Source: Priestia megaterium NBRC 15308 = ATCC 14581 (lineage in GTDB: Bacteria > Bacillota > Bacilli > Bacillales > Bacillaceae_H). From it: 64,000 nt of DNA. Location: NCBI RefSeq assembly GCF_000832985.1, contig NZ_CP009920.1, positions 992,001 through 1,056,000 of the forward strand, given 5' to 3'. The notes beneath the pieces are model-generated. The model was not told the origin of the DNA. It saw nothing but the letters and a program-made list of their open reading frames with translations, and did not search any database. The position numbers and the translations under genes were made by a program. Shown here one piece after another: positions 6,054 to 34,914 of the stretch (position 1 is the first letter of the stretch; each line of letters opens with the position of its first letter).

Positions 6054-7136
6054 TTACATTTTATTTTGAATGCGGTATACGTAAGCTAATATTTCAGCCA
6101 CCGCTTTAAAAAATTCTTCGGGTACTGCATCTCCTACTTTAGTTTGGTCAAAAAGTGCTCTTGCCAGCGGGCGGTTCTCTACCATGATGATTTCATGGCT
6201 TTTGGCGATTCCTTTAATCTTTTGAGCAATAAAATCTACGCCACTGGCTACAACATAGGGAGCATCCATTTTTTCTTCATCATATTTTAAAGCAATGGCA
6301 TAATGAGTGGGGTTTGTAATGATGACATCTGCTTTTGGAACTTCTTGCATCATGCGAGACATTGCCATTTCCCGCTGCTTTTGCTTTATTTTTGATTTGA
6401 TTAGAGGATCGCCTTCAATGTTTTTATGCTCATCTTTGATATCTTGCTTTGACATTCGAATATTTTTCTCGAAATCAAAATTTTGGTAAAAATAATCAAG
6501 CAGCGATAAAAATAAAAGCATAAGCGAGGCTGCAAGTCCCATTTGAAAAACAAGCTTAGACAGAACAACCAGCGAGTCCCCTATACTTTTTTGAGATAAA
6601 TTTAATACATCTTCTATGTGAATCCATAAGATAAAAAACGTGACGGCTCCGATACACATAATTTTCAGCGTTGACTTGATTAGTTCTACCAGCGCTCTCA
6701 TGGCAAAAATCCGTTTGGCTCCGCTAATAGGGTTAATCTTTTCTAACTTAGGCTGAAGAGCCTCCGTGGAAAAAAGAATACCAACCTGCATATAATTCGC
6801 TCCGAGCGCAGCAATAAAAGCTGCGAGCATAACAGGACCTGCTGCAAGGGCTATTGCAGGAAGAAGGTGCTTAAACATCGCAAATACGCGCTCTGCCGTC
6901 ACTTCCTCAAGCATATACGTTTGAAAAGCTTCTCTTAACAACTTCATCATTTGCTGTAAAAACTGTTTGGCTCCAAACAAAAAATAAAGAAAAACCATTA
7001 AAAGGATGAGCGCAGTTGTAACGTCTTGACTTTTAGCTACCTGTCCTTTTTTTCTAGAGTCTTGCTTTTTTTTAGGTGTAGCTTTTTCCGTTTTTTCTCC
7101 CGCGAAAAATTGCAAATCAACTTTTACTAAAAACAA
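6054..7136 (-). CDS. flhB: Flagellar export switch protein FlhB
   Basis: FlhB is the export-gate subunit that switches substrate specificity from rod/hook to filament proteins after a signal from FliK. The 360-residue protein has the family start DLQFFAGEKTEKATPKK, four hydrophobic segments, and the self-cleavage site NPTH near residue 270 in ADVIITNPTHYAIALKY. The start is a TTG whose ribosome site (AGGAGGGG) lies inside the end of fliR. Because FlhB reads the FliK signal, its normal appearance is relevant to the unusual FliK encoded downstream in this window's coordinates at 14025 to 16661. Confidence 0.96.
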   Translation of the reverse strand: MFLVKVDLQFFAGEKTEKATPKKKQDSRKKGQVAKSQDVTTALILLMVFLYFLFGAKQFLQQMMKLLREAFQTYMLEEVTAERVFAMFKHLLPAIALAAGPVMLAAFIAALGANYMQVGILFSTEALQPKLEKINPISGAKRIFAMRALVELIKSTLKIMCIGAVTFFILWIHIEDVLNLSQKSIGDSLVVLSKLVFQMGLAASLMLLFLSLLDYFYQNFDFEKNIRMSKQDIKDEHKNIEGDPLIKSKIKQKQREMAMSRMMQEVPKADVIITNPTHYAIALKYDEEKMDAPYVVASGVDFIAQKIKGIAKSHEIIMVENRPLARALFDQTKVGDAVPEEFFKAVAEILAYVYRIQNKM

Positions 7137-12769: not shown

Positions 12770-13561
12770 CTATCGTTTTAGATTCACTAGCTCTTGCAGT
12801 ATTTCATCGGATGTTGTAATAATTCTTGTGTTCGCTTGAAATCCGCGCTGTGCAACAATCATATCCGTGAATTCTTCCGATAAATCAACGTTGGACATTT
12901 CAAGGGCGCTTGAGACGAAGCTTCCTGTGCCGTTGGCTCCTGGAGCTCCTACTAAAGGACCTCCTGAGTTTACGCTTTGAGCAAATAAATTCCCCCCTGC
13001 TTTTTGCAGTCCTTCATTATTTGCAAATTTAGCAAGTTCGACAGTTTGATTACTGGAGATGTTCCCGTTAGCATCTATGATGTTAACCTTTCCATCTGCT
13101 CCTATACTGTAGCTCTTACTTGTTGAAGGAATATTTATATTCCCTCCTCCAGTTTTTTGCACGTACAGTCCATCACCCGTTACCAAATTACCGCTGCTAT
13201 CTAAATAAAAATTCCCCGCTCTTGTATAATAATTTGTGACTCCATCTCTTACTACAAAATAACCGTCTCCAGAAATAGCTAAATCAAGCGGACGCCCCGT
13301 TGACTGAATGCTTCCTGCCGTTTGAACTGTATCAATTGTGCCAATTTGCGAACCTAATCCGACTTGTTTAGCATTAACACCTCCACGGTTAGCTCCCGGT
13401 GCTGTTGCTCCTGCTACCTGCTGACTTACTAAATCTTGAAACGTTGTACGTCCTTTTTTATAGCCGTATGTATTAACGTTGGCAATGTTATTTCCTAGGA
13501 CATCTAATTTAGTTTGAAAATTTTTCATGCCGCTGATTCCTGAATACATCGAACGTAACAT
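12770..13561 (-). CDS. flgE: Flagellar hook protein FlgE (FlgG-like, short form)
   Basis: FlgE polymerises into the flagellar hook. The 263-residue protein has the rod/hook N-terminal motif (MLRSMYSGISGMKNFQ, then ANVNTYGYKK) and the C-terminal helical motif SNVDLSEEFTDMIVAQRGF typical of axial proteins. A compact central beta-rich region contains GYFVVRDG. It is a short hook protein without the extra surface domain of enteric FlgE, as in B. subtilis, where it was long called FlgG. It follows flgD, its capping protein. Confidence 0.93.
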   Translation of the reverse strand: MLRSMYSGISGMKNFQTKLDVLGNNIANVNTYGYKKGRTTFQDLVSQQVAGATAPGANRGGVNAKQVGLGSQIGTIDTVQTAGSIQSTGRPLDLAISGDGYFVVRDGVTNYYTRAGNFYLDSSGNLVTGDGLYVQKTGGGNINIPSTSKSYSIGADGKVNIIDANGNISSNQTVELAKFANNEGLQKAGGNLFAQSVNSGGPLVGAPGANGTGSFVSSALEMSNVDLSEEFTDMIVAQRGFQANTRIITTSDEILQELVNLKR

Positions 13562-13586: not shown

Positions 13587-14015
13587 TTAACTGCTTACTT
13601 CTAAGATATCGTTTAGCGAAAGTACCGTATGATTTTCATCGTTGATCGTAAACGATATCTCATTGTTTTTGACGGATGCTGTTAAAATAACTCCTTGCTT
13701 TTTATTTCCTTCTTCATCTAACCATGCAGCGGTTTTACCAATTAATTCGCTTCCTTTTAAAATAGGAGAAGCCTGAGACTGCGTTAAAAACGTATTGAGC
13801 GATGTGCTCATATTTGTCATTTGTTCAAGGGATGAAAACTGAGCCATTTGAGCAATAAAGTCTTTGTCTTGCATTGGATTCATTGGATCTTGATTTTGAA
13901 GCTGCGCAATCAAAAGCTTCAAAAAGTCATCTTTGCCAAGCGAGCTGTTTCCCGTTTGCTTCACTGGTGTGTCCCTATTGCTTAAATACAAGTCAGACGT
14001 AATTTCATTTGTCAT
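13587..14015 (-). CDS. flgD: Flagellar hook cap protein FlgD
   Basis: FlgD caps the growing hook and directs addition of hook subunits. The 142-residue protein contains the family signature [20 protein letters not shown] and [10 protein letters not shown] in its N-terminal half, followed by a short beta-rich part. It lacks the long C-terminal FnIII/tudor region of enteric FlgD, like other Bacillus versions. The ATG at 14015 is preceded by AGGTGATAAC; the upstream GTG at 14024 lies inside that ribosome site and is less likely. It is only nine bases from the fliK stop. Confidence 0.93.
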
Positions 14016-14024
14016 TGTTATCAC

Positions 14025-16661
14025 CTATACGTTGTAGTTAATGAGCGCTGCTTCAAAAGAAGATAGAAAGGAATCCGATTCTTCCAATTGTTGTGAATCT
14101 TGATCTTCTTCTTTTTTAAACGCTTCTTTTTCCTGTCTTTCTTTTTGCTGGTCGTTTTCATTGTTATACGACATCGCTTGTTCTGACAGTAGCACATCGA
14201 TTTTATCAATTGATACATGCTGAGACGCGAGACCGTGCCGCAAAGTTGAAAGGTTGGCGTCCAATAACTCTTTTGTTTTTGCTGACGATACGACAATTCG
14301 CGCAACCGTTTCACTGTCTTTCTGAAGCATTTCAATTGAAATCGCACCTAGCTGTTTTGGAAATAACTTAATGAAAAGCTTGGATGTTCCCTCTTCAGTA
14401 CTGATCGAAGCTTTACTCCATATTTTTTCAAGCTCGTTTACCAAATTGCTAGACTGTTGATAGTCAGATTTTGCTTGCCCTAGATAAATAGAGAACTGCT
14501 GAAGCTTAGGCATTTCTCCACTTCCAAAGGATGATGGCTGATTCTCTACTGTCGCTCCGGTTGTGTTTGTAACTGCAGAACTTTCGCTATTTTTTAAAGA
14601 GCTATTTGTATCTATACTTTCGCTGTGTAATACCACATCTTTTTTCCATGGAAGCTGATTGAAAAACGGTATTTTTTCTTCTTTACGAAAAGCGGTCATA
14701 TTTCTCACAGAACTTTCTGAAGCTGTATGAACAGCGTCCACACCAACTTGATCAACCGATACATGCTGAGACGTGAGAGCTTGTCGTAATCTAAAAAGGT
14801 TAGCATCTAACAGCTCTTTTGTTTTCACTGAGGATACAACCACTTGCGCAGTCGTTTCATTTTTTTGCTGAAGCACTTCAATTGAAATCGTACCTAGCTG
14901 CTTTGGCAATAACGTAACGAAAAGCTTGGATCTTCTCTCTTCAGCACTGAGCGAAGCTTTACTCCATATTTTTTGCAGCTCGTTTACTAGATCACTAGAC
15001 TGTTGATGGTCTAATTTCACTTTCCCTAAATCAATAGAAAACTGCGGCACTTTTTCTTCTTTAGCAAAAGCGGTCATATCTTTTACAGAACTTTCTGGAG
15101 CTGCTTGAACAGCAACCACATCGACTTGATCAACCGATACATGCTGAGACGTGAGAGCTTGTCGTAATCTGAAAAGGCTGGCGTCTAACAGCTCTTTTGT
15201 TTTCGCTGAGGATACAACCACTTGCGCAGTCGTTTCATTTTTTTGCTGAAGCACTTCAATTGAAATCGTACCTAGCTGCTTTGGCAATAACTTAATAGAA
15301 AGCTTAGATGCTCTCTCTTCAATACTGATCGATGCTTTACTCCATATTTTTTGCAGCTCGTTTACCAAATCGCTAGACTGCTGATGGTCTGATTTTGCTT
15401 GCCTTAACTCAATAGAAAACTGCGACCCTTTTTCTTCTTTACCAAAAGCGTTCATATCTGTCATAGAACTTTCTGGAGCCGCTCCAACAGCGGCCACATC
15501 CACTTGATCAACCGATACATGCTGAGACGCAAGAGCTTGTCGTAAACTGAAAAGGCTGGCGTCTAACAGCTCTTTTGTTTTCGCTGAGGATACAACCATT
15601 TGCGCAACCGTTTCATTTTCTTGCTGAAGCACTTCAATTGAAATCGTACCTAGCTGCTTTGGCAATAACTTAATAGAAAGCTTAGATGTTCTCTCTTCAA
15701 TACTGAGCGAAGCTTTACTCCATATTTTTTGCAGCTCATTTAACAGGTTGTCAGACTGTTGATGACCAGATTTTACTTGCCTTAGATCAATAGAAAATTC
15801 TTGGACCTTAGGTACTTCATTAGATTTAAAAGATGATGGATTATTTTCTAAGGTCGCCTCGGCCGTGTTAGCAGTGAAAGAAATTTCACTATCCTTTTTT
15901 GAACTATCCCTATCCATACTTTCGTTACGTAAAATCACATCTTTTTTCCATGGAAGCTGATTCAAAAGCGGCACTTTTTCCTCTTTATGAAAAGCGGTCA
16001 TATCTCTTACAGAACTTTTTGGGGCTGCTTGAACAACGGCGAAGAAATCAGCTGAGCGCTTTTCATGTAAGGTATCGGTTAATACACGTGGTTGTTTATG
16101 AATTTTCTCTATTTTTTCAGCAGCAGTTTTCTGCAAACCCTCAAGCTGCAGATCCGAAAGCTTCACTGACTGCAGCTGCGGTTTTTGTAGTTCTTCCATC
16201 AGCTGAGCAAACTCTGTTTGAAAAACAGCTGACGTATTTTTACATAGTTCCAGCAAAGTAGAAATAGAAGTTAAATACTGTTCTTGACTGTCTGTTTCAG
16301 GTGAAACAGGTGCATGCTGCATGTCTGTTAACACGTGCTGCAGCTTTAGAAGCGGCTGTTCCAAATCTAGACTACCTGGAATACTACTGATCATCTCGGC
16401 TAGATGTTCGTACAAGACAGATGGTTCATCCTCTTCATCTTCTGCTTCGCTTAACTGAATTGCCATTAACCCGACCGCCTTGAAGACGTCTTGATCTACC
16501 GTTTGTTTATCGGATGATTTCTCCCCGCGCGTTAAAGGCTGCGCATCTAGCTGCTTAAGCTGCTGAACAACTTCTTCAAAAAAACCCTGAGTCTGAATAA
16601 CAGCTGCTTTTTCATTGCAGTTTACCTTTGATGCAGCTGCTGGACGTAGTGAAATTTCCAC
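14025..16661 (-). CDS. fliK: Flagellar hook-length control protein FliK with four tandem C-terminal-type domains
   Basis: FliK is exported during hook growth, measures hook length and triggers the FlhB switch through its C-terminal domain. The position between the MotE-like gene and flgD identifies it. This version has about 878 residues; B. subtilis FliK has roughly half that. Residues 1-211 are a Gln/Leu-rich N-terminal region. Residues 212-823 hold four tandem units, each ending in a Flg_hook-type domain with LPKQLGTISIEVLQ (unit 4: FPKQLGAISIEMLQ) and KTKELLDA. Residues 824-878 are a highly charged tail ending in ALINYNV. The GTG at 16661 has a well-spaced AGAGG; a GTG at 16670 lies within the ribosome site. 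Confidence 0.9.
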   Translation of the reverse strand: MEISLRPAAASKVNCNEKAAVIQTQGFFEEVVQQLKQLDAQPLTRGEKSSDKQTVDQDVFKAVGLMAIQLSEAEDEEDEPSVLYEHLAEMISSIPGSLDLEQPLLKLQHVLTDMQHAPVSPETDSQEQYLTSISTLLELCKNTSAVFQTEFAQLMEELQKPQLQSVKLSDLQLEGLQKTAAEKIEKIHKQPRVLTDTLHEKRSADFFAVVQAAPKSSVRDMTAFHKEEKVPLLNQLPWKKDVILRNESMDRDSSKKDSEISFTANTAEATLENNPSSFKSNEVPKVQEFSIDLRQVKSGHQQSDNLLNELQKIWSKASLSIEERTSKLSIKLLPKQLGTISIEVLQQENETVAQMVVSSAKTKELLDASLFSLRQALASQHVSVDQVDVAAVGAAPESSMTDMNAFGKEEKGSQFSIELRQAKSDHQQSSDLVNELQKIWSKASISIEERASKLSIKLLPKQLGTISIEVLQQKNETTAQVVVSSAKTKELLDASLFRLRQALTSQHVSVDQVDVVAVQAAPESSVKDMTAFAKEEKVPQFSIDLGKVKLDHQQSSDLVNELQKIWSKASLSAEERRSKLFVTLLPKQLGTISIEVLQQKNETTAQVVVSSVKTKELLDANLFRLRQALTSQHVSVDQVGVDAVHTASESSVRNMTAFRKEEKIPFFNQLPWKKDVVLHSESIDTNSSLKNSESSAVTNTTGATVENQPSSFGSGEMPKLQQFSIYLGQAKSDYQQSSNLVNELEKIWSKASISTEEGTSKLFIKLFPKQLGAISIEMLQKDSETVARIVVSSAKTKELLDANLSTLRHGLASQHVSIDKIDVLLSEQAMSYNNENDQQKERQEKEAFKKEEDQDSQQLEESDSFLSSFEAALINYNV
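14193..16028 (-). repeat. Four tandem in-frame repeat units inside fliK
   Basis: In reading order the units are 16028-15483 (long), 15482-15105 (378 bp), 15104-14727 (378 bp) and 14726-14193 (long). Each unit opens with an AAPESSV-like peptide and DMTAF.KEEK, continues with HQQSSDLVNELQKIWSKAS and ends with VSVDQVDV. Units 1 and 4 carry an extra segment of about 55 residues (starting NQLPWKKDV) that units 2 and 3 lack. Units 2 and 3 are nearly identical at the DNA level over their last 200 bp, indicating recent duplication or gene conversion. Confidence 0.93.
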
Positions 16662-34608: not shown

Positions 34609-34636
34609 TGTATAAAAATAATTGTCTAATTGTCTA
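34609..34636 (-). promoter_or_regulatory. Candidate sigma-A promoter of sucCD
   Basis: On the minus strand TAGACA (34636-34631) is followed by 16 bp and TATACA (34614-34609). The expected start point near 34602 gives a leader of about 57 nt. A second TAGACA lies eight bases closer but at a poor distance from the -10 box. Confidence 0.45.
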
Positions 34637-34864
34637 CTATTCTAGTGAAAAATATTGAAATAATAAGAAAATTGATATTTTTATGGAGATAGTACTTAAC
34701 CATACCTTATGAAGTCGATGAGGCTCTGCGGACGTTAAACGTATGGTTGATCATGTAAATCAACCTTCACAACTGAAGCGAACTGAAAGGAAAATAATTT
34801 ACGAACTTCACCCGTAGCAATACCTCCACTTAAATAGGCTATATTCTTTTTGAACCTAAAATCC

Positions 34865-34881
34865 CGCATGTGAAACATGCG
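34865..34881 (-). terminator. Weak terminator-like hairpin after rnhB
   Basis: CGCATG and CATGCG form a 6-bp stem around TGAAA. On the minus strand it is followed by GGGATTTTAGG, only a short T-run. It lies 33 bp past the rnhB stop. Efficiency is doubtful. Confidence 0.4.
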
Positions 34882-34914
34882 CTAAAAAGCAGGGATATGC
34901 TCGGGTATCATGTT

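Follow-up and report, generated by a model that had tools for sequence, protein, structure and literature searches.

The main finding of this study is that the fliK gene in the window, by which we mean the whole stretch of 64,000 nucleotides of Priestia megaterium analysed here, encodes a FliK hook-length protein that carries four tandem copies of its C-terminal switch domain. A natural FliK with two to four tandem switch domains is a FliK all the same, and a variant for which we found no prior description in the literature searched, most subscription journals being outside the reach of that search. The first-pass annotation had ranked it as the strongest candidate for a new mechanism in the window, but this is so far unsupported. 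The gene sits in a flagellar cluster directly before flgD, which is followed by a FlgE-type gene (both by Pfam), while the FliI-, FliH- and FliG-like genes upstream of it were recognised by eye. Its reading frame runs without stops for 881 codons from GTG 16670 or for 878 codons from GTG 16661. An AGAGG site lies 8 nt upstream of GTG 16661, whereas GTG 16670 overlaps the same site, and because of this spacing GTG 16661 is likely the better start on sequence grounds, in agreement with the start and the length of 878 residues first annotated. FlgD, FlgE and FlhB had been described as normal, and all three match their Pfam families, FlhB keeping its NPTH motif. The repeat unit of this FliK takes in linker as well as domain, and the layout is as follows.

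14025..16661, minus strand: fliK, 878 aa, GTG start, intact frame with four PF02120 matches (Pfam)
16050..16661, minus strand: FliK N-terminal region, residues 1-204, presumed export/ruler region, predicted helical (layout; AlphaFold2)
15798..16049, minus strand: long linker before copy 1, residues 205-288 (84 aa), repeated before copy 4 (low pLDDT)
15483..15797, minus strand: Flg_hook switch domain copy 1, residues 289-393 (Pfam; layout)
15420..15482, minus strand: short linker from copy 1 to copy 2, 21 aa (layout)
15105..15419, minus strand: switch domain copy 2, residues 415-519 (Pfam; layout)
15042..15104, minus strand: short linker from copy 2 to copy 3, 21 aa (layout)
14727..15041, minus strand: switch domain copy 3, residues 541-645 (Pfam; layout)
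14496..14726, minus strand: long linker before the last copy, residues 646-722 (77 aa) (layout)
14181..14495, minus strand: switch domain copy 4, the last and most conserved copy, residues 723-827 (Pfam; comparisons)
14028..14180, minus strand: FliK C-terminal tail, residues 828-878, ending ALINYNV, present once only (layout; comparisons)
13587..14024, minus strand: FlgD hook cap protein, 145 aa (Pfam family match)
12770..13561, minus strand: FlgE/FlgG-type hook protein, 263 aa (Pfam family match)
6054..7136, minus strand: FlhB, the switch partner, 360 aa, normal, with NPTH motif (Pfam family match)

A Pfam search of the protein finds four Flg_hook (PF02120) stretches with a whole-protein E of 3.2e-51, and in the genome search the single copies score 50.6-55.2 bits each against a cut-off of 29.8, so that the four domains in an intact FliK claimed at first are all counted above cut-off. 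All pairs of the 105-aa copies align with scores of 340-431, where the shuffle maximum is 56-76 (1000 shuffles per pair). At the DNA level the copies are spaced 378, 378 and 546 nt, and over 300 nt the identity of copies 1-3 with copy 4 is 81-84%. Of the motifs said to recur in each copy, KTKELLDA is present in all four, while the other, 'LPKQLGTISIEVLQ', is exact in copies 1-3 but reads 'FPKQLGAISIEMLQ' in copy 4. That the array is an assembly or sequencing artefact of a repeat is exceedingly improbable: the copies differ by about 11% among themselves and by 16-19% from copy 4 in DNA, and separate genomes carry four, three and two copies with matching linkers. No support for the artefact reading of the array was found. 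A Pfam match to Lin1244_N on FliK was weak and under its own cut-off, and was ignored.

The AlphaFold2 model of the window's FliK was built from 14 sequences and has a mean pLDDT of 57.9, so only its per-domain pattern was used; in it strands and helices follow one another in the same order in each of four units, mostly at pLDDT 60-80. Helices are also predicted between residues 50 and 190 of the N-terminal region (most blocks at pLDDT 70-90), the long linkers are of low confidence, and the tail after copy 4, which is 51 aa long and charged with a conserved end, is drawn with helices at pLDDT <60. The model of the FliK of another Priestia genome, G006, reaches a mean pLDDT of 51.3. Foldseek matches the window's model to the FliK C-terminal domain 2RRL with probability 1.00 and E 4e-5, but with an rmsd of 31.6 over a long alignment and a TM of 0.38 by target length, and to the switch domain of PscP (5CUK) with probability 1.00, E 2.5e-3, TM 0.60 by target length and rmsd 4.4. 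The top Foldseek match, villin 9jus (E 4.8e-6), was set aside at a TM of 0.07. By sequence, 2RRL is the sole phmmer match and a weak one (E 0.038 for copy 4, 0.27 for copy 2), and a profile of 14 FliKs run against solved structures places it eighth of nine at E 0.36, with unrelated helical proteins on top at E 0.01. Judged from these models, the window's switch domains may share the fold of the FliK C-terminal domain.

Comparison of domain number across Priestia, which the first-pass annotation had suggested, gives Flg_hook counts of 4, 4, 3, 2, 1 (in five genomes) and 0 among 10 genomes of the genus including the window's own, with one genome per species. The multi-copy genomes are the window and G009 with four copies, G001 with three, which is taken to be P. 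aryabhattai B8W22, and G003 with two. In the draft assembly of G003 the flhB match (G003:C1:557808-558829) is split over two overlapping frames, one of them with an in-frame stop, which is either a broken gene or a sequencing error. The zero-copy genome, G007 (6.0 Mb, 10 contigs, completeness 100), has neither an FlhB nor a Flg_hook match, and because the FlhB match is absent as well, it appears to lack this export system and is probably non-flagellated. Beyond the genus, same-frame tandem Flg_hook domains occur in at least six of 397 genomes of the order, namely the four Priestia, G178 with three domains in a frame of 671 aa and G021 with two domains in one of 799 aa; this count is a lower bound, as copies with an E above 0.001 escape detection and no more than 13 candidates were scored per genome. 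When the 113 non-Priestia genomes with two or more matches were searched again, only G178 and G021 had pairs in one frame. No further same-frame pairs were found among the matches listed for 129 genomes of the phylum, one of which is the window's, and a search of a plasmid collection returned one distant FliK, in Rossellomorea.

In many Bacillales a further Flg_hook match, for the most part a weaker one, lies some 20 kb away from fliK, and a paralogue could be mistaken for a tandem domain. In G202 this was rejected: the second match (G202:C1:2042561-2042785) belongs to a separate 488-aa gene that lies between rnhB and a small gene recognised by eye as FlhB-like, before sucC. We take this FliK-like gene and its small FlhB-like neighbour to be YlqG and YlqH, possibly a FliK/FlhB paralogue pair. 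Unlike G202, the window shows no YlqG/YlqH-type gene between sucC and rnhB (34609-34914). In G014 and G015, both from the window's family, the second Flg_hook match is on another contig, and in eight genomes of one family, f41 (G174, G224, G246, G267, G287, G307, G326 and G345) a weak Flg_hook match falls in a separate frame of 743-804 aa, also on another contig.

The spacing and the phylogeny of the copies suggest how the array grew. In all four multi-copy Priestia species 182 aa separate the start of the last copy from that of its predecessor, while the internal steps are 126 aa. The nine earlier copies form one clade (support 95/91 in the protein tree and 91/93 in the DNA tree), and the four last copies fall outside it without forming a resolved clade themselves; of the two copies of G003, one belongs to the clade of earlier copies and the other lies outside it. 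The copies of G009 and G001 pair in the trees, first with first and copy 3 of G009 with copy 2 of G001, and the window's first three copies cluster with one another (support 91/88 in the protein tree and 84/94 in the DNA tree), a pattern expected from homogenisation or from recent duplication. We infer that a linker and its domain were duplicated first and that internal units with the shorter linker were added later, so that the array looks like a two-copy form enlarged by in-frame duplication of a 126-aa unit. The fliK gene would thus have expanded through in-frame tandem duplication of a unit of linker plus switch domain. In Salmonella, a suppressor with a 100-residue in-frame duplication inside fliK has been described (PMC6972891, of which part was available), and since that suppressor arose, such duplication occurs readily. 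Its authors credit better FlhB binding rather than ruler length (PMC6972891, same part), and the suppressor is a precedent for the type of mutation, not for the reading of the extra copies as ruler.

The copies are not equally conserved. Compared across the four multi-copy species, last copies share 88-96% identity at a dN/dS of 0.11-0.39, and first copies 72-90% at a dN/dS of 0.30-0.53; variable columns number 14 of 105 in the last copy versus 39 in the first (Fisher p 1.1e-4, uncorrected for shared ancestry). In the closest pair, G009 and G001, the earlier copies have 10 and 12 changes versus 4 in the last, a modest difference in rate. Against 11 single-domain relatives, the mean BLOSUM sum is 184-192 for last copies and 147-176 for earlier ones, and of 34 columns conserved in single-domain relatives the earlier copies keep 16-21 and the last copies 21-23, with two columns that are invariant in the single-domain rows altered in the last copies too. 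On these sequence comparisons the earlier copies do not appear clearly degenerate, and degeneration is found weakly. The tail, which is the feature unique to the last copy, occurs once per protein, and eight of nine Priestia FliKs end in INYNV, the other in INYNI.

These differences bear on the statement of the first-pass annotation that the last copy alone should be placed to contact FlhB, which is not established. The motif P-x-x-L-G-x-I-x-I is kept in 12 of the 13 copies of the four multi-copy species, including all four of the window, and aligns to HPEELGQVHI of 2RRL. Val-302 and Ile-304 of Salmonella FliK lie close to FlhB according to the available part of PMC6972891, and all four window copies are hydrophobic at these two positions. 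Because secretion of FliK begins at its N-terminus, all the copies should travel past FlhB, led by copy 1. A rival reading deserves attention, in which secretion halts briefly at every folded copy, and each copy can engage FlhB on arrival. The array would then act as a serial brake with several stops, either offering one FliK up to four chances to switch, at hook lengths near 59, 84, 110 and 146 nm, or prolonging the total time that the single tail dwells there. We regard it as unlikely, although it has several points in its favour: the contact motif kept throughout the window's array, the same predicted order of strands and helices in all four copies, dN/dS below 1 for every copy pair, and the proposal of a 2026 paper, as far as its available text goes, that the fold of the FliK C-terminal domain brings about a transient arrest of secretion while the last five residues act on FlhB (PMC13344023). 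On the other side, the tail is present once, and copy 2 of P. aryabhattai, one of the nine earlier copies, has lost the Gly of LG, which is invariant in the 11 single-domain relatives. The wider claim that this is a natural multi-stop ruler, with a hook length that comes in discrete steps (by the Salmonella rule about 59, 84, 110 and 146 nm) or depends on how many successive chances there are and not on one measured distance, seems to us more unlikely still.

FliK has also become long by other routes. We scanned 31 FliKs for internal repeats by windowed local alignment with shuffles, comprising 15 of the window's family (nine Priestia and six others) and 16 long ones of 565-916 aa picked by hand from the listed frames; self-BLAST for the same purpose returned the identity match only. 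Repeats were detected in none of the 10 short FliKs (open frames of 333-492 aa). All five long Priestia FliKs have them, but whereas four repeat the switch unit, G006 (locus L034, a 729-aa frame) has three copies of an N-terminal unit and one switch domain. Among the 16 other long FliKs, G178 repeats the switch domain and G021 has repeats on both sides, while G145, G211, G022 and G327 (and G308 weakly) have repeats on the N-terminal side with one switch domain; nine of the 16 have no detectable repeats. Lengthening by repetition of different parts is expected if length is what changes, and favours a role of the extra copies as length; the nine long FliKs without repeats count against it. The first-pass annotation held that an ordinary FliK is about half as long as the window's, which fits the 10 short FliKs of the family but not nine frames of 902-966 aa outside the order (G464, G445, G425, G510, G478, G484, G490, G474 and G519), each with one Flg_hook among the matches listed. 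By their sequences, very long FliKs appear not to be rare elsewhere and would need no tandem switch domain. The N-terminal-side lengthening in other species needs no extra brakes, which counts further against the serial brake.

The readings can be compared through the hook lengths that they predict. In Salmonella, FliK variants of 363-785 aa give hooks of 42-135 nm, or 0.2 nm per residue (available part of PMC6126814), and the switch core begins at residue 268 (available part of PMC6972891). Carrying the rule of 0.2 nm per residue to Priestia is an assumption, under which the hook of the window's species would be 59 nm if set by copy 1, 84 nm by copy 2, 110 nm by copy 3 and 146 nm by copy 4. 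Set by the last copy, it would be 145 nm in G009, 119 nm in G001 and 96 nm in G003; G006 is predicted at 117 nm, and the four single-domain, repeat-free Priestia at 51-59 nm. No measured hook length for these species was found in the literature searched, and the genome paper of P. megaterium B1, in its available part, treats fliK as an ordinary gene and gives neither hook length nor domain count (PMC11302069). Across the multi-copy species the first domain begins at residue 282-289, and the single domain of G002, G004, G005 and G008 at 249-289, while copy 4 of the window starts 434 residues beyond copy 1. Since copy 1 is thus near the single-domain distance, switching there would give an ordinary hook. 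It follows that the first copy might set the hook length (about 59 nm) and the later copies be a nearly neutral expansion downstream, and the copy number does vary between related species, as neutral expansion would give. We consider this unlikely, because the most conserved copy is the last and not the first, and because copy 1 is without the tail, which in Salmonella is said to control switching (PMC6972891) and through whose final five residues FliK is proposed to act on FlhB (PMC13344023), both sources being available in part.

The reading that we prefer, and to which our analysis gives an even chance, is that the last copy with its tail switches FlhB and the extra copies act mainly as ruler length, with hooks of about 145 nm. 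The last copy, as bearer of the sole C-terminal tail, would most likely trigger the FlhB switch, and the earlier copies would be unfolded and threaded into the channel like the remaining ruler, mainly adding length, so that the four-copy hook would be longer than in single-domain relatives, at about 145 nm by the Salmonella rule. We infer the switching by the last copy, the ruler role of the others and the hook length from the comparisons above. Two observations favour this reading: repeats on the N-terminal side have lengthened other FliKs, and conservation is highest in the last copy. Of the options offered by the first-pass annotation, added ruler length is for the same reasons the best supported. 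Against a long ruler counts the observation, in the available part of PMC6126814, that in Salmonella soft-agar motility is lower once FliK reaches 520 aa. How FliK converts distance into a switch is still under study, with length, secretion pause or contact time as candidates (PMC13344023, in its available part). A single genus here supplies FliKs with one to four switch domains and a species lengthened N-terminally, a natural test series in which hook length would separate the models: about 59 nm for the first copy, about 146 nm for the last, and several peaks if any copy can act.

Some injectisome length regulators are lengthened by repeats as well, with one switch domain each. The injectisome regulators YscP and PscP are linked to the window's FliK by the Foldseek match to 5CUK, and differ from it as parts of injectisomes. 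The closest counterparts are the FliKs of G001, G009 and G003, which are the same gene with the same type of array in three, four and two copies. With Salmonella and Bacillus FliK (PF02120, 2RRL) the window's protein shares the domain family, possibly the fold, the tail after the last domain, a predicted helical N-terminal region and the place before flgD, but it has four tandem switch domains and not one, and at 878 aa it is longer than both Salmonella FliK (405 aa; available part of PMC6972891) and the 10 short family relatives (333-492 aa as open frames). The Salmonella FliKs with YscP inserts share with it a FliK that has been lengthened, in their case up to 785 aa with switching kept, yet these are engineered, and their inserts are helical pieces of YscP and not switch domains (available part of PMC6126814).
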